Below are positions 3,782 to 18,821 of a stretch of DNA of 20,556 nt, piece by piece (the first letter of the stretch is position 1; each line of letters opens with the position of its first letter). Position numbers and translations under genes: made by a program. The notes beneath the pieces are model-generated. The model was given only the letters and a program-made list of their open reading frames with translations, searched no databases and was not told where the DNA came from. The stretch is taken from IMG/VR virus record IMGVR_UViG_3300045950_000318, positions 1-20,556 of that record, one strand, 5' to 3'. Source of the stretch: a virus.

Positions 3782-3971
3782 GGCCGACTCCCTGCGTCTC
3801 GCGCTTGCCGTAGAGCTTCGTGCCCAGCTGCTTCACCAGTTCCCGCTCCGGCCAGGCGAGGCGTGGATCGTCCTCGGCAACCACCAGGACGCCCTGCTCA
3901 TGCCAGCCGTCGCGCTTGACCTCGTCGGGCGCACGCCGCTCGCCGCCATAACCCTTGGGGAAGCGCCTCAT
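3774..3971 (-). CDS. Small phage protein, 65 aa, unknown function
   Basis: The protein is charged and starts MRRFPKGYGG. The middle holds WHEQGVLVVAEDDPRLAWPE, followed by a basic end. No domain is recognised. I call it a gene because its ATG (3971) overlaps the stop of the RuvC-like gene as ATGA and its stop overlaps the start of the DUF6362 gene by 8 bases. This is the same tight coupling seen throughout the element. It has no other start codon that would fit better. Confidence 0.72.
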   Translation of the reverse strand: MRRFPKGYGGERRAPDEVKRDGWHEQGVLVVAEDDPRLAWPERELVKQLGTKLYGKRETQGVGHG

Positions 3972-4504
3972 CGCACGCCCCCGTTTGTCTCCATGGCCCA
4001 GAGCAGGATGGCGATGGCGTCGGCCTCGTTGTCGTCGGCGGGCGCGAATCCGCGGGCGCGGATCGCCGCCATGACCGCGGCCTTGTCGGCGTTGCCCTTG
4101 GCGGCGACGTGGCGCTTGACGGTGCCGACCGGCACGCCCTGGTAGGCGATGGAACGCTGCTCGCACCAGGCGGTCAGCGTGGCGAGAAATCCGCCGTAGA
4201 GATGCGCCGCGTCGGTGCCGATATGCCGCCGGACCTCCTCGAAGTAGATCGCGGCAAAAACGCCGGCGTCGCTCGCCAGCCGGTCGAGCCAGCCACGGAA
4301 GCGAAGATAGCGCATGCCGCCGCCATCGTAGCGGCTCGGGCGGAATGACGTGGTGCCGCTGACGACCGCGCCATCGGAAAGGCGCATCGCCCAGCCGGTG
4401 GTGGTGCCGAGATCGAGAGCGAGGACGGGAAGACGGCGGCGGTCGAACGGTCCCGCGGCCGGATCGGAAACTGCCGTTGCCGGCAGATCGGGAGCGATGT
4501 TCAT
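3968..4504 (-). CDS. RuvC-like Holliday junction resolvase (178 aa)
   Basis: The fold is RNase H-like. The first acidic residue lies in LALDLGTTTGWA (D31), the second in IYFEEV (E89/E90), a conserved lysine region follows at 130-142 (VKRHVAAKGNADK), and the last acids are in DDNEADAIAILL (157-168). These match phage-type RuvC enzymes, which cut four-way junctions made during phage recombination and replication. The size fits the family. The ATG at 4504 is the first possible start, since an in-frame TGA lies 12 bases upstream. The Shine-Dalgarno is poor. It heads a three-gene run (RuvC, 65 aa, DUF6362). A promoter is predicted 46-74 bases upstream, with GTTGGTGAC repeats beyond it. Confidence 0.88.
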   Translation of the reverse strand: MNIAPDLPATAVSDPAAGPFDRRRLPVLALDLGTTTGWAMRLSDGAVVSGTTSFRPSRYDGGGMRYLRFRGWLDRLASDAGVFAAIYFEEVRRHIGTDAAHLYGGFLATLTAWCEQRSIAYQGVPVGTVKRHVAAKGNADKAAVMAAIRARGFAPADDNEADAIAILLWAMETNGGVR

Positions 4505-4549
4505 GACGAAGGCTCACGGTGCGTGGGCCTTCGGCTTTGGTCGGCGAGG

Positions 4550-4578
4550 ATTCTACGGGCCGCATAACGGCGCGGCAA
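4550..4578 (-). promoter_or_regulatory. Predicted sigma-70-type promoter for the RuvC operon
   Basis: On the minus strand TTGCCG (4578-4573) and TAGAAT (4555-4550) are separated by 17 bases. The -10 is a good match and the -35 matches four of six positions. Transcription would start near 4543, about 40 bases before the RuvC ATG. The nearest GTTGGTGAC repeat starts 15 bases upstream of the -35, so a protein bound there could affect this promoter. Confidence 0.45.
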
Positions 4579-4592
4579 ACGAAAAAGCTCTT

Positions 4593-4872
4593 GTCACCAA
4601 CCCCCATCGCGAGGTTGGTGACGGGAAAGAGCGCCGTGGGATCAGGCGCTTGACCCCGCCTGTCACCAACCTTGGCTGTCACCAACGGGGTCACAACATA
4701 TTCGTATGGAAAATGCGCATTCCCTTTGGAAGCGGTCGGACATCCATTCTCCACGTATCGGTTTCAAACCCGTCGGTGACGTTGGTGACGTTGGTGACAG
4801 CGTTGATCCGAAAGCATTATTCCTGTCACCAACCCCTCCGCGAGGTTGGTGACAACGCAGGGGGTTGGTGAC
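4593..4872. repeat. GTTGGTGAC iteron array, probable replication origin
   Basis: Nine exact copies and one near copy of GTTGGTGAC or its complement lie in this gene-free 280 bases. Forward GTCACCAAC copies are at 4593, 4662, 4678 and 4825. GTTGGTGAC copies are at 4614, 4781, 4790, 4845 and 4864, and GTCGGTGAC is at 4772. The copies at 4772, 4781 and 4790 are head-to-tail with a 9-base period. Two sets form inverted repeats with 10-base arms (4593-4602/4613-4622 and 4825-4834/4844-4853) around similar loops. An A+T-richer stretch lies between (about 4691-4722). The array follows the terminator of the primase-helicase gene. P4-type primase-helicases bind GGTGA-containing iterons, so an origin is a reasonable inference; an operator array is the alternative. 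Confidence 0.7.
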
Positions 4873-4882
4873 AGCGCGGACG

Positions 4883-4905
4883 AAAAAAGAGCGCCCGAAG
4901 GCGCT
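4883..4905 (-). terminator. Intrinsic terminator after the primase-helicase
   Basis: On the minus strand AGCGCC-TTCG-GGCGCT (4905-4890) forms a six-base-pair stem with a stable UUCG tetraloop. One C follows and then six Ts (4888-4883). It lies 20 bases after the stop codon of the primase-helicase gene. This is a textbook rho-independent terminator and marks the end of the large replication operon. Confidence 0.9.
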
Positions 4906-4924: not shown

Positions 4925-7468
4925 TCAGCGGCGGTATCGCCACTCCCGTGGCGCGTCCGCGCCCGAGCCCAGCCGCGCCTGGTATCGGCGCCAGCCCCTG
5001 GCCTTGAGCCAGGCCGTCACCCGCATCTGGTCCGAGCGCGACCAGCGTCCCGGCTCCAGCCCGATCGCGTACTGCAGGATTTCGCCGACTGACACGTCGG
5101 CGAGCGGCGTCGCCCGCGCGACCTCCTCGTCGCGCCAGTCGTCGTAGCCCGCGTAGCCGTGGTTGACCCGCCGCCGCTCGAAGGCGAGCCAGCGCTCGAT
5201 CAGCGCGTCCCAGGCGTCGGAATGGTAGCGGGCTTCCTGCTCGACATCGGCGGCGGCGACCAGGGCCGGGTCGTCGAGCCACCAGATGGCACCCGCGCGG
5301 TAGCGGGCGGCGGCCTCGGCCCAGAGCTGGTCGCGGTCGCGGCGGAGCACGTCGAGGTCGATGCGCCCGCAGCGCACCGGCCAGAAGCGCCGGTTGCCGG
5401 TCTCGTCGCGCAGATAGGTGTCGGGGTTGACGCTGCCGGCGAACACGCACTGGCGCGGCACCTCGACGACGTAGCGCTCGTAGGGCGGCCGGTAGCGGTC
5501 GACGGTGCGGGTCAGGAACGCCTTGATGCGCGAGACCTCGGCGCGGCCGATCGCGTCCAGTTCGGCGATCTCAATGATCCAGATGCCGCGCATCTGCTGG
5601 GCGGCGTCCTTCGAGCCGATCTCGGCGATCTCGTCGGTGAACCATTCCTCGCCGGCCAGGACCTTCAGCGCGGTGGATTTCTTGGCGCCTTGCGGGCCTT
5701 CGAGGATGAGCATGTGATCGACCTTGGCGCCCGGCCGCATGATGCGGGCGACGGCCGAGATCATCCAGAGCGAGCCAAAGGCCCGGTTGAGCGGCGTGTC
5801 CTCGGCGCCGAGATAGGCGAGCGTCCAGGTCTCCAGCCGGGGCGTGCCGTCCCAGACGAGACCCTGCAGATAGTCCCGGACGGGATGGATGCGAATGTCG
5901 CGCGCGACCGCGCCGACGCCGCGGCTGACGACGGCGGGCGCGACGTTGATCTCGCGCCGCTGCAGCCATTCGGCGCAGCGCACATCGTCGGCGTCGCTCC
6001 ACGGGCGGGGGACGCGAATGCTCCCGGGCGCCGCCTGCTCGTCCCACGGCAGCGGCCGGGTGATCAGGATTTCCTGGCGGAACTCGTCGAACACCAGCGC
6101 GCCGGCGAAGGCCTCGTCGCTGCCGAGCGCGGTGATGACGTTGGCCTCGTTGCGCTCGGGGGTGCCGGCGAGGTCGAGACGCAGCCGGCTTGCCCAGCGC
6201 GGACGGATCGGCCGGTGATGGATGTCACCGGTCGCGTTCAGGCGGCGGCGCAGCTCGCCGATCTGCTTCTCCAGGATCGCCACGGAGATCCCGGTCGCGC
6301 CCTTGATCGCCGCCAGAACCTGCCGCTCGGGCAGCGGCTCCAGGCGAACCTTGACGAGCTGGCCGAGCAAGGTGCCGAGCGTCTGCAGATCGGGCGGGCT
6401 GGTCAGCGCCCGGGCGGCCGCCTCGAACTCCGCGGCCGTGGCGGGAGCGGCGGGAACCGCGGGCGCTGCCGGTTCCGGGGTGCGATAATCGGCCGCCGTC
6501 ACGCCGCGGCGCAGGTCGTCGTTGAAGTCGTCGCCATGCAGCGGCGAGACGATCGCGTTGGCGATGCCGGCGGTGTTCAGCCGCTCGGCGAGCTGGGCGG
6601 CGGCCTCGGCGCCCGCCTCGCCGGCATCGGCGAAGACGGTGACACGGGCGACGCCGTCGGGCCATTGCCAGCGGCGCAAGCCCTCGGCGGAGAGCGCCGC
6701 CCATGTCGGCACCCCGAAGATGGCCTGGGCCGAGAGCGCGGTCTCGATGCCTTCGGCGACGCCGAGGTGGCCGTCCGCGCCTACGGCCGAGAGTCGGACC
6801 GAGCCGCCGGCGACCGGGCCGAGCATCTTCTTGCCCGGCGGCGCCTTGGCCGAGCCGTCATCGAGCAGATAGGTGCGGTGGATGCCGCCGGTCGGCTTGC
6901 CCGCGCCGTCGCGGACCCGCGCCACCATGCCGGACCAGCCGCGCTTGGTCTCGAAGTCGGCGAGATCGGCATGGAAGAGGAGATCGGGAGAGCCCGGATC
7001 GCCGAGGCCGCGCGCGCGTAGATAGGCTTCCGCCGGCGAGCCGGCGAGCGGCCGGCATCCATCGAGAATCCGGGCGACCTCGAGGCGGTGGTGCGGTCTC
7101 GGCGGCGATGCCGGCCGTGACGGCGCCGGCCGGTCGAGCCGCGCGAGCCGGGCCGCCTCCTCGAACAGCGCCCGGTCGGCCAGCCCGGTCGCATGGTGAA
7201 TGAGGTCGATCGGACCGGCGCTCTCGCCGGTGGCATGGTCGTAGCCCCGGCCGGCATGCGGGCCGGCGAGGTGGATCACGCACGAGCCCTCGTTGCGGGG
7301 CGGCCGGCCCGAGAGATCGGCGCAGCGCAACGTTTTCCTGTCGGGCGCCGGCCGCGCCTGCGGGAACAGCGGCGGCAGCCAGCCGGCCGCCGTGGCCGTC
7401 AGGCGCTCGCGGACCTCATCGAGATCAATCCGGACAGGCGGCTGCCAGACGTCGTTCAGATCGATCAT
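4925..7468 (-). CDS. Toprim primase / VapE-type helicase fusion (847 aa)
   Basis: A replication initiator-type protein with two halves. The N-terminal half is primase-like: a Toprim domain with the glutamate motif GVAEGIETALS (236-246) and the acidic motif VFADAGEAG (278-286). The usual DxD of this motif reads DAG, so the second aspartate is replaced by glycine. A linker rich in Ala and Pro lies at 331-348. The C-terminal half is a virulence-associated E / P4-alpha type SF3-like ATPase with Walker A GPQGAKKST (591-599), Walker B IWIIEIAELD (629-638) and the arginine motif GNRRFWPV (691-698). It probably primes and unwinds DNA at the adjacent iteron array. It follows the RecD-like helicase gene by 9 bases and is the last gene of the operon, before a terminator. 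The start MIDLNDVW resembles the starts of three operon neighbours. Confidence 0.92.
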   Translation of the reverse strand: MIDLNDVWQPPVRIDLDEVRERLTATAAGWLPPLFPQARPAPDRKTLRCADLSGRPPRNEGSCVIHLAGPHAGRGYDHATGESAGPIDLIHHATGLADRALFEEAARLARLDRPAPSRPASPPRPHHRLEVARILDGCRPLAGSPAEAYLRARGLGDPGSPDLLFHADLADFETKRGWSGMVARVRDGAGKPTGGIHRTYLLDDGSAKAPPGKKMLGPVAGGSVRLSAVGADGHLGVAEGIETALSAQAIFGVPTWAALSAEGLRRWQWPDGVARVTVFADAGEAGAEAAAQLAERLNTAGIANAIVSPLHGDDFNDDLRRGVTAADYRTPEPAAPAVPAAPATAAEFEAAARALTSPPDLQTLGTLLGQLVKVRLEPLPERQVLAAIKGATGISVAILEKQIGELRRRLNATGDIHHRPIRPRWASRLRLDLAGTPERNEANVITALGSDEAFAGALVFDEFRQEILITRPLPWDEQAAPGSIRVPRPWSDADDVRCAEWLQRREINVAPAVVSRGVGAVARDIRIHPVRDYLQGLVWDGTPRLETWTLAYLGAEDTPLNRAFGSLWMISAVARIMRPGAKVDHMLILEGPQGAKKSTALKVLAGEEWFTDEIAEIGSKDAAQQMRGIWIIEIAELDAIGRAEVSRIKAFLTRTVDRYRPPYERYVVEVPRQCVFAGSVNPDTYLRDETGNRRFWPVRCGRIDLDVLRRDRDQLWAEAAARYRAGAIWWLDDPALVAAADVEQEARYHSDAWDALIERWLAFERRRVNHGYAGYDDWRDEEVARATPLADVSVGEILQYAIGLEPGRWSRSDQMRVTAWLKARGWRRYQARLGSGADAPREWRYRR

Positions 7469-16975: not shown

Positions 16976-17674
16976 TCAGAACAGCTCCGCCGTCGCCTGG
17001 GATTTGTCCTTGACCAGCTTCAGGTCGAGCAGGCGGTAGCACATCGCCTCGTTGGAGACGTTCAGGAACCCGCCCTCGGCAATGACGTCGCCCGCGAAGG
17101 CACGAAGTCGCGCGTCCGGGACGCCCGTCTTCCGGCTGTCGGCGAGCCCGTCCCAGACCGGCGGCTTGGCGTTGCAGACGGCGAGCGCGGCCGCTCGCAC
17201 CGCCATCGCCGGCATCAATAGCCGGACGGCGAACTGGTCGGCCTGCCATTCGGCCGGCGTCCTGTGCTCCTTCGCGCGGCACACCACGGCCGGCGTCGGC
17301 TTCTCGTCGGGGCTCATGGAAAACAGCGGCAAGGTCACTTTGTCCATCTCGTAGAGAGGGCGGTGCAGCTGCCAGTGGCCGATCTCGTGGGCCACTGTGA
17401 ACGCGAAACGCCCCTCCTTGCCCTCCAGCGACCGGTCGATGCGGACGCACTCCTCGTCGAACCAGGTCGCGCCCAGGACATCGTCCATGCCGAGCCGCTC
17501 CTTGAGATCGGCTACCTCCAGCGTCAGCCGCAGATACCCCTCGGCGATCTCGTCCACGTCGATGGGCGGCTGCACGACGGCCTTCTTCCATGCTCCGTAT
17601 TGCCGCAGCAGCTCGGCGACGGCGTGGTCGAGATCGCTCGGCTTCAGGAAGGGCACCTTGATCTGCAACATCAC
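16976..17674 (-). CDS. ImmA/IrrE family metallo-endopeptidase (232 aa)
   Basis: A zinc protease of the COG2856 type. FAFTVAHEIGHWQLH holds the HExxH zinc site (HEIGH, 96-100), and AEWQADQFAVRLLMP (141-155) supplies the third ligand and the conserved helix. In known cases such as Bacillus ICEBs1 ImmA, the protease cleaves the partner XRE repressor to release the element's genes. Here it overlaps an XRE gene directly upstream. The first possible start is GTG at 17674, which overlaps the repressor stop as GTGA; ATG at 17671 is the next codon, and the two cannot be separated by sequence. A target other than the repressor is possible. Confidence 0.92.
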   Translation of the reverse strand: MMLQIKVPFLKPSDLDHAVAELLRQYGAWKKAVVQPPIDVDEIAEGYLRLTLEVADLKERLGMDDVLGATWFDEECVRIDRSLEGKEGRFAFTVAHEIGHWQLHRPLYEMDKVTLPLFSMSPDEKPTPAVVCRAKEHRTPAEWQADQFAVRLLMPAMAVRAAALAVCNAKPPVWDGLADSRKTGVPDARLRAFAGDVIAEGGFLNVSNEAMCYRLLDLKLVKDKSQATAELF

Positions 17675-18030
17675 GCCTTGCCTTTCTTCGCCTGCGCCTT
17701 GTCCAGAAGCGCCATGAGCTTGTCCGCTGAGACGTTCTGCTCCTTGGCCCGGCGCAGGAATTCCGGCATGCCCGGGTCGGCCTTCACATAGTCCGAGACC
17801 TCCCTTGGGATCCGGCCGGCCAGGATCATCAGCTCGTCGAAGTCCTCCTGGAGCATGTCGGCAAGCTTCCGGATCACCTTCTCGGCGGGGACAGCCTTCT
17901 CGGCCCCGGTTTCGATTCGCGACATGAAGGTGGCCGAGATGTCCGCCTTGCGGGCGGCCTCCCGAAGCCCGATGCCAAGTTCCGTGCGGCGCCGGCGGAT
18001 GCGTTCCCCAAAGGTCTCCGACTTCTTCAT
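17671..18030 (-). CDS. XRE-family transcriptional repressor (119 aa)
   Basis: The N-terminal part is a Cro/CI-type helix-turn-helix: FGERIRRRRTELGIGLREAA (7-26), RKADISATFMSRIETG (27-42), KVIRKLADML (51-60). A short C-terminal tail (DPGMPEFLRRAKEQNVSADK, 85-104) could take part in dimerisation or cleavage. The frame continues upstream to an ATG at 18144, but MKKSETFGER at 18030 gives the normal XRE start and leaves the operator box at 18056-18070 outside the gene. GGAGA precedes the ATG. It overlaps ImmA at its stop. It probably represses itself and the 401-aa gene, both of which carry the same box. Confidence 0.9.
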   Translation of the reverse strand: MKKSETFGERIRRRRTELGIGLREAARKADISATFMSRIETGAEKAVPAEKVIRKLADMLQEDFDELMILAGRIPREVSDYVKADPGMPEFLRRAKEQNVSADKLMALLDKAQAKKGKA

Positions 18031-18055
18031 TTCGGTCTCCGATTCTGCTTGTACC

Positions 18056-18070
18056 CTAAACCCTAAACAC
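18056..18070 (-). promoter_or_regulatory. Operator-like GTTTA box upstream of the XRE gene
   Basis: On the minus strand this is GTGTTTAGGGTTTAG, two GTTTA units 8 bases apart. It is 25 bases before the XRE start codon. A near copy lies upstream of the 401-aa gene at the same distance, which fits repressor autoregulation plus control of a second operon. Confidence 0.6.
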
Positions 18071-18108
18071 CATCGAGTCAATCGCCCCTCCGGCGGCCGA
18101 GCACCGCT

Positions 18109-18140
18109 CTTGTCCCAATCCGCCCGCGGCAGGCGCGTTT
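18109..18140 (+). promoter_or_regulatory. Dispersed 32-base element, copy 2
   Basis: On the plus strand this matches the minus-strand copy at 13337-13306: the first 21 bases agree at 20 positions and CGCGTTT is kept after four differing bases. It points toward DUF2924 and the recombinase. It could be a promoter for an element-encoded sigma factor or an operator. Confidence 0.55.
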
Positions 18141-18374
18141 CCATGGCGAACTTCCATCGCCGGGAACCGCTGCCTTGTCCAACCCCATCTCTTCCGATCG
18201 CATGACCGCAGCTGAGCGAATCGGCGAGATTTGCACGATTCTGGCCCGGGGGCTGGTTCGGCTGAAGGCGCGCCAGTCAAGGCCTGTATCCGACGACCGC
18301 GGAGAAAGTTGCCTCGACTTCCCGGACGACCAACGCGGTCATGCCAACCGCACGCGAAGTCGTGAGGCAAGAGC

Positions 18375-18821
18375 ATGACCGAGACCATCATCGCCCGAAT
18401 CGCGGCTCTGAAGACGACGCCGACCCCGGATCTCAAGAAGCAGTGGCGCGATCTCTTCGAGACTGAGCCGCCGCCCTACAACCGGCGCTTCCTCGAAAGC
18501 CGGCTCGCCTACCGCATCCAGGAACTCGCCTACGGCGGGCTCAAGCCCGAGACGATCGAGCGCCTCGAGGCGCTGGGCGAGCAGCTCGACGGCGGCAACA
18601 TCGTCATGCGCCGGACCCGCGCCCACGACAAGCCGATCACCGGCACGCGGCTGATCCGCGAATGGCAGGGCGTCGAGCACACCGTCACCGTCCTGCAGGA
18701 CGGCTACGAGTGGCAGGGGCGGCCCTACCGGTCGCTTTCCGCCATCGCGCGGGCCATCACCGGCACGCGATGGAACGGCTGGGTGTTCTTCGGCCTCAAG
18801 AACCAGCGGGGCCACGCATGA
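18375..18821 (+). CDS. DUF2924 domain protein (148 aa)
   Basis: Matches the DUF2924 family by LKKQWRDLFETEPPPYNRRF (20-39), ESRLAYRIQELAYGGL (41-56), and the C-terminal half with RLIREWQGVEHTVTVLQDGY, GRPYRSLSAIARAITGTRWN and GWVFFGLK. This C-terminal pattern is like a small DNA-binding fold seen in phage-type proteins. The family is usually encoded just before a large serine recombinase in alphaproteobacteria, as here. It is probably an accessory factor for the recombinase, but its role has not been shown to my knowledge. Its stop overlaps the recombinase start as ATGA. Confidence 0.9.
   Translation: MTETIIARIAALKTTPTPDLKKQWRDLFETEPPPYNRRFLESRLAYRIQELAYGGLKPETIERLEALGEQLDGGNIVMRRTRAHDKPITGTRLIREWQGVEHTVTVLQDGYEWQGRPYRSLSAIARAITGTRWNGWVFFGLKNQRGHA

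Follow-up and report, generated by a model that had tools for sequence, protein, structure and literature searches.

The replication origin of SaPIs and other PICIs is reportedly served by an initiator of the Rep or Pri-Rep type (Ubeda 2007/2012; Fillol-Salom 2018). In P4, the alpha protein is a primase-helicase initiator whose C-terminal origin-binding domain is paired with short iterons of the GGTGA type, and the control region crr lies apart from ori. Origins of PICIs comprise two sets of iterons on either side of an AT-rich region (Fillol-Salom 2018, PMC6092414), an organisation that in the view of the same authors is shared by no other known bacterial replicon. The C-terminal domain of SaPI Rep acts on iterons located just 3' of its own gene (PMC7581432), and the SaPI repeats, as opposed half-sites, are thought to direct two head-to-head hexamers (PMC9894130). 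Genes annotated as 'Virulence-associated protein E' are common in phages, and the role ascribed to their products is often vague; the paper on phage PS3 labels the VapE domain a typical auxiliary metabolic gene (PMC8424206). Our search of the literature found no paper joining VapE, an origin of replication, iterons and phage.

Results of our analysis concern an iteron array beside a VapE-type gene, and the SaPI/PICI origin is the closest known system to it. Most probably (about 0.88), replication of a temperate phage starts at this array, with the Toprim-VapE protein encoded next to it as the initiator, which would read the iterons by means of a winged helix.

The iteron array and its genomic surroundings

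The window, by which we mean the whole stretch of DNA analysed (20,556 bases), is an IMG/VR virus record and represents a virus contig rather than a plasmid. It ends ahead of the structural-gene region. Since the related 50.6-kb contig G001 contains genes of terminase, portal, major head and tape-measure proteins, the element is most simply regarded as a temperate tailed phage and neither a plasmid nor a satellite. The term "autonomously replicating element", used in the first-pass annotation of this DNA, thus fits in the sense of an induced temperate phage, the replication of which we infer.

Genes 3' of the array encode the RuvC-like resolvase, a DUF6362 protein and ParB-methylase fusions, and the rest of the window encodes, among others, a Dda-like helicase, a Cas4-domain exonuclease, a Sak4-like annealing protein, an XRE-type regulator with an IrrE-like peptidase, and a serine recombinase. 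At 17671-18821, the genes of the XRE-type regulator and the IrrE-like peptidase are divergent from a DUF2924 gene and the serine recombinase gene, with a lysogeny-switch-like intergenic region between them.

Nine exact copies of GTTGGTGAC and one copy with a single mismatch are located within positions 4593-4872 (Table 1), and every exact copy in the record lies inside the array. Matches to GTTGGTGAC with one mismatch allowed number 14 in the window (2.8 +/- 2.0 expected), a value attained by none of 100 dinucleotide shuffles. The array had been described in the first-pass annotation from the letters alone, and that description proved accurate as regards the nine exact copies and one near copy, the tandem trio with a 9-base period (4772/4781/4790), the two palindromic sets with similar loops (ccccatcgcgag in the pair 4593/4614 and ccctccgcgag in the pair 4825/4845) and the A+T-richer stretch between the repeat sets. 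Likewise, the array follows a terminator-like hairpin of the Toprim-VapE gene, read on the minus strand from 4905 to 4890, and occupies a gene-free stretch bounded by the stop of VapE (4925) and the start of the RuvC-like gene (4504), crossed by mechanical open reading frames only. The distance from the VapE stop to the array is 52 bp.

What that description did not include is the overall symmetry. Taken together, the ten sites make a single dyad-symmetric pattern round the spacer, which nearly maps onto itself when turned: the iteron orientations along the plus strand are - + / - - / 85-bp spacer / + + + / - + +.

Table 1. Features of the array and its flanks (positions as in the window; iterons are compared with GTTGGTGAC)
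Feature	Position	Strand	Remarks
RuvC-like resolvase gene	3968..4504	-	PHROG 159, E 3.5e-26; constant neighbour of the array in relatives
Near-invariant leader hairpin GACCRAAGCCGAAGGCCCAC-N5-GTGAGCCTTC	4505..4542	-	directly before the RuvC-like start
Promoter-like site TTGCCG-17-TAGAAT	4550..4578	-	between array and RuvC-like gene; consensus match only
Iteron, outer inverted pair, RuvC side	4593..4601	-	exact
Iteron, outer inverted pair, RuvC side	4614..4622	+	exact
Iteron, inner block	4662..4670	-	exact
Iteron, inner block	4678..4686	-	exact
Central spacer, candidate melting site	4687..4771		50.6% A+T (window 31.1%)
TTTTCCATACGAATATG, local form of spacer element TTTCCTATA	4698..4714	-	
Iteron, tandem block	4772..4780	+	one mismatch, GTCGGTGAC
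Iteron, tandem block	4781..4789	+	exact
Iteron, tandem block	4790..4798	+	exact
Iteron, outer inverted pair, VapE side	4825..4833	-	exact
Iteron, outer inverted pair, VapE side	4845..4853	+	exact
Iteron closest to VapE	4864..4872	+	exact
Terminator-like hairpin at VapE operon end	4890..4905	-	
VapE, putative self-loading initiator, 847 aa	4925..7468	-	DUF7146 + Toprim_3 + VapE-like AAA+ helicase + C-terminal winged helix
Winged-helix domain, VapE residues 794-846	4931..5089	-	AlphaFold2 models
Codon of VapE Gln830, follows iteron 3' part	4979..4981	-	co-switching
Codon of VapE Thr818, follows iteron 5' part	5015..5017	-	co-switching
Codon of VapE Arg811, follows iteron 5' part	5036..5038	-	co-switching

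Conservation of the array in related loci

Relatives were collected via the VapE protein; the set, for the most part from Alphaproteobacteria, comprised 80 loci of viruses and 80 loci in bacterial genomes. An array was counted where at least 5 copies of one 7-mer were present, in the 146 loci that have VapE and RuvC in order. Arrays of 5-12 copies were found in 140 of these 146 loci, in phages as well as prophages; the control (best of 5 dinucleotide shuffles per locus) gave 5 copies in a single locus and 6 copies nowhere. A 5-copy array before RuvC is missing in six of the 146 loci (L021, L028, L044, L089, L101 and L137), three of which (L044, L021 and L137) have four copies left and may represent decayed arrays. 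As a check of the origin proposal, the first-pass annotation had suggested looking for this motif beside homologues of the primase gene in related elements. It turned out that the array is conserved and the motif itself is variable: the exact 9-mer GTTGGTGAC is present in some relatives only, and the search for any repeated word reveals an array in nearly all. Words found across the loci include GTTGGTGAC, GTGGTGAC, GTGGTGCA, GTGGGAC, GTTGGGAC, GGTTGGAC, GGTAGGAC, GTGGGAAC and others.

The layout of the family, [- +][- -], an A+T-richer spacer of 80-110 bp, [+ +][- +], is largely kept across motif classes in both orientation pattern and spacer length, the '-' and '+' blocks being 80-100 bp apart in most loci, and the array mostly spans 245-300 bp. 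In three whole contigs (G009, G004 and G006), the motif is confined to the array, with counts of 10 of 10, 8 of 8 and 11 of 12 copies inside it; in a fourth one, G001, the 7-base core, which is short, is found outside the array too. Across 112 loci, the A+T content is about 0.50-0.55 at the centre of the spacer and about 0.36 in the flanks, an enrichment that is relative to the G+C-rich genome only. The spacer element TTTCCTATA (at most 1 mismatch) is present in 25 of 48 distinct spacers, as compared to 6 for the best word of shuffled spacers. On the RuvC side, the stem pattern of the leader hairpin recurs in 69 of 115 RuvC-like leaders, with a conservation too high to show covariation, and no Rfam family matched the window, this hairpin included, at curated thresholds.

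In many relatives, VapE is separated from the array by inserted genes of up to about 6 kb. The distance from the array to RuvC, typically 90-250 bp, is kept even with up to about 6 kb of cargo between the array and VapE. The gap between VapE and the array appears as a cargo hotspot, often with defence genes (L158:13134-17009, L031:8803-10926, L011:8659-9540 and L112:11916-14990), which encode LmuA/LmuB (Lamassu), an OLD-family nuclease, a PD-T4-7-like protein and a Lmu-like protein; L085 has a metal-transport ATPase in this position, and L080 a transposase. Several relatives have second, unrelated repeat clusters 3' of RuvC, with the words GGTTACCA, GGTTTCCA and GGTTCGCA (L025:9521-9689, L027:10990-11148, L033:9671-9801 and L041:7586-7671).

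The same layout 3' of a VapE-type gene, spelled in other words, is found in the distant phages APSE-1, Marinobacter PS3 and Pseudomonas Haddon. No clear array was seen in Jess A (a Caulobacter phage) or ACF1 (from Acidovorax), as no 7-mer is present in more than four copies downstream.

Domains and predicted structure of VapE

The domains of VapE were assigned with Pfam, where the VapE-like domain (PF05272) scores 277.8 bits against a curated cut-off of 25 and Toprim_3 has an E value of 1.5e-26; PHROGs assigns the protein as DNA helicase/primase. The AlphaFold2 models place the recognition helix of the winged-helix domain at residues 811-823 and the wing strands at 827-832 and 841-846, so that the recognition helix holds residues 811 and 818, and the first of the wing strands holds residue 830. 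The mean pLDDT of the winged-helix fragment model is 84.9, and the full-length model is of low confidence in part of the helicase core. A Foldseek search with the latter returned PriRep1 with dsDNA (7pds) first (E 1.8e-18) and DnaG primases next; matches to the winged-helix fragment alone were weak, with PriRep1 chains on top (E 0.19). The sole match in the PDB sequence search was also 7pds (E 9e-64, residues 425-760).

VapE residues that change with the iteron

The combination of a fixed layout and a changing motif makes it possible to ask which protein changes along with the motif. With stratification for VapE distance, columns 818 and 811 of VapE scored 0.57 and 0.56 (mean 0.002, sd 0.066), and the maximum for neighbouring proteins in the same test was 0.28. 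Switches were counted on a tree of VapE residues 1-760 from 120 dereplicated loci. In 120 of 120 loci, position 830 is occupied by Gln where the motif ends in GGTGAC (or GGTGCA) and by Arg or Lys where it ends differently (e.g., GGGAC), and all 12 switches of the 3' part of the motif fall on branches where this residue switches. At position 811, Arg goes with GTTGG and Lys goes with GTGG in 116 of 120 loci (motif classes being automatic consensus calls, except for the hand-assigned L026 and L029, which are two of the four exceptions), and 23 of 26 switches coincide. Pairings of each residue with the other part of the motif are at chance level, which argues that the 5' and 3' parts are read separately.

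With a Dda helicase tree as an independent reference, R811 and Q830 of VapE each gave log10 P of -19, and the best column among seven neighbouring proteins (RuvC, DUF6362, Sak4, Cas4, PHROG-2300 protein and two methylases) gave -4.2, these P values being rough because branches are unequally likely to change. The C-terminal domain of VapE, predicted in the first-pass annotation to be the partner of the motif, would thus be the sole region among the proteins compared that switches with it. Glutamine at a T.A pair and arginine or lysine at a G.C pair would be compatible with ordinary base contacts.

The code was applied to a held-out set of 44 VapE proteins from two further viral scans, less than 99% identical to the training set (median identity to the nearest training protein 94.5%), of which 36 are accompanied by an array. 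With automatic scoring, the 5' part was correct in 33 of 36 and the 3' part in 31 of 36 cases. A hand reading, made after this result had been seen, gave 35/35 for the 3' part and 32/35 for the 5' part; in it, L285, L275 and L237 lack T as predicted, L204 is printed on the opposite strand (3' part right, 5' part wrong), and L174 is uninterpretable. Haddon has Lys, Gly and Arg at the positions of 811, 818 and 830, for which the code predicts GTGGGAC, and GTGGGAC is found. PS3 and APSE-1 align poorly at the code residues, and PS3 as aligned departs from the code. As judged from these comparisons, three residues of the VapE tail change with the spelling of the iteron, and the fit between helicase and origin would therefore be largely predictable.

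Probable function of the array

The proposal of a probable origin of replication, already made in the first-pass annotation, gains support from the symmetry and conservation of the array, the change of its motif and the co-switching of the motif with VapE residues. The binding of VapE to the DNA, the loading of its rings, the melting of the spacer, and the firing of the origin and its direction are what we infer, and the process may be pictured as follows. The winged helix of VapE would read the iterons on both sides of the spacer, its recognition helix (residues 811 and 818) addressing the 5' part of the iteron and its wing strand (residue 830) the 3' part. Two mirror-image half-arrays, each with an inverted pair and a tandem block, would load two oppositely facing helicase rings, one on each side of the A+T-rich spacer. 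The rings would melt the spacer, bidirectional synthesis would begin, and the Toprim domain would lay primers. The cumulative GC skew has its minimum near the array in one of four whole contigs, with no consistent turn at the array, and GC skew at fourfold sites, taken by gene, is mixed.

Possibly, the array is instead a control region bound by VapE, either a copy-number/incompatibility site or an autoregulatory operator of the RuvC operon, with replication starting elsewhere; we consider this unlikely. When cargo parts the array from VapE, the array remains beside RuvC, a behaviour that a regulator of the RuvC operon would explain too, and a promoter-like site is situated between them. P4, with crr apart from ori, provides a precedent. 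However, that promoter-like site falls outside the array, no second cluster of the motif is present in the window or in the whole contigs G009, G004 and G006, and 8-11 sites mirrored round an A+T-rich spacer correspond to the plan of a PICI origin and not to a simple operator.

The idea that another protein (the RuvC-like protein, DUF6362 or a repressor) binds the array and turns on downstream genes is very improbable, even though the array has a constant neighbour in RuvC and DUF6362 looks helix-turn-helix-like by eye. Columns of RuvC and DUF6362 reach no better than log10 P of -3.3, as compared to -19 for the VapE residues, and DUF6362 is found in about half of the loci (75 proteins vs. 145 VapE). 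An operator for either of them was rejected, as the motif co-switches with VapE residues instead, and binding by a repressor only is disfavoured because the covarying residues sit in the helicase-initiator itself. Packaging (pac/cos) and partition sites, suggested by the terminase genes downstream in a related contig and the ParB-like methylases close by, were likewise rejected as very improbable, since the motif tracks VapE and the co-switching of ParB-methylases is not comparable (-4.2 at best for the seven proteins).

Comparison with known systems

As in SaPIs and PICIs, the iterons in the window directly follow the 3' end of the initiator gene, an A+T-rich region lies between two sets of iterons in the window and its relatives, and the C-terminal domain of the initiator appears to be matched to the iterons, judging by co-switching on two trees. 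The differences are that the relatives identified here are full tailed phages with structural genes (G001) and not satellites, that the array is tied to the RuvC-like gene, sometimes several kb from the initiator gene, and that the motif turns over following specific residues. Moreover, SaPIbov1 and SaPI5 have an AEP primase, whereas VapE is of the Toprim type (Toprim_3, DnaG fold matches). PriRep1, a staphylococcal self-loading helicase, is both the sole PDB sequence match and the best fold match of VapE, although the Toprim region is absent from the matched stretch. The plan as such is known from SaPIs/PICIs; what our analysis would add to it, set against the 2018 statement, is its occurrence throughout a tailed-phage family whose primase is of another type, together with a residue code of iteron choice.

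The first-pass annotation had pointed to P4 as a precedent, which is correct as to the pairing of a primase-helicase initiator with iterons, but the SaPI/PICI origin is nearer. The motif differs in class from that of P4, one array only is present here as opposed to two separate regions (ori and crr), and P4 alpha was not found among the matches to VapE in the searches run. The P3 protein of the Hamiltonella phage APSE-1 is about 29% identical to VapE in its helicase part, and the array of this phage, [- +][- -] spacer [+ + +][- +], is similar in plan; its iteron, GGTTGTTAC, is different, and its spacer is very A+T-rich. A description of the APSE-1 array as an origin was not found in the literature searched. 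The locus also differs from lambda-type origins, in which the iterons sit within the initiator gene and the helicase loader is a separate protein: here the array is outside the VapE reading frame and the initiator has its own helicase domain.

Possible implications

The probable job of VapE would be that of a replication initiator, with a DNA address recognisable by eye. The symmetric plan described for the origins of satellites would then extend to ordinary temperate phages from two classes of Proteobacteria, a point relevant to the source of the replicons of satellites. The residue-to-motif code offers a natural series in which initiator and origin would have changed together many times, and its predictions can be tested directly by gel shift. 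Such an initiator/origin pair might serve as a plasmid replicon for Alphaproteobacteria.

More tentatively, and with somewhat less than even odds, the match of three residues may set groups of replication specificity (incompatibility), in which initiator and origin switch together by a modular code and prophages residing in one cell avoid firing each other's origins.

Two prophage arrays are present in each of four genomes (L102/L105, L131/L148, L083/L153 and L135/L147). In this small sample, the iteron classes differ in three genomes, those of Magnetospirillum SS-4, Gemmobacter nectariphilus and a Bauldia MAG, and both arrays of the Paracoccus genome are of the same class.
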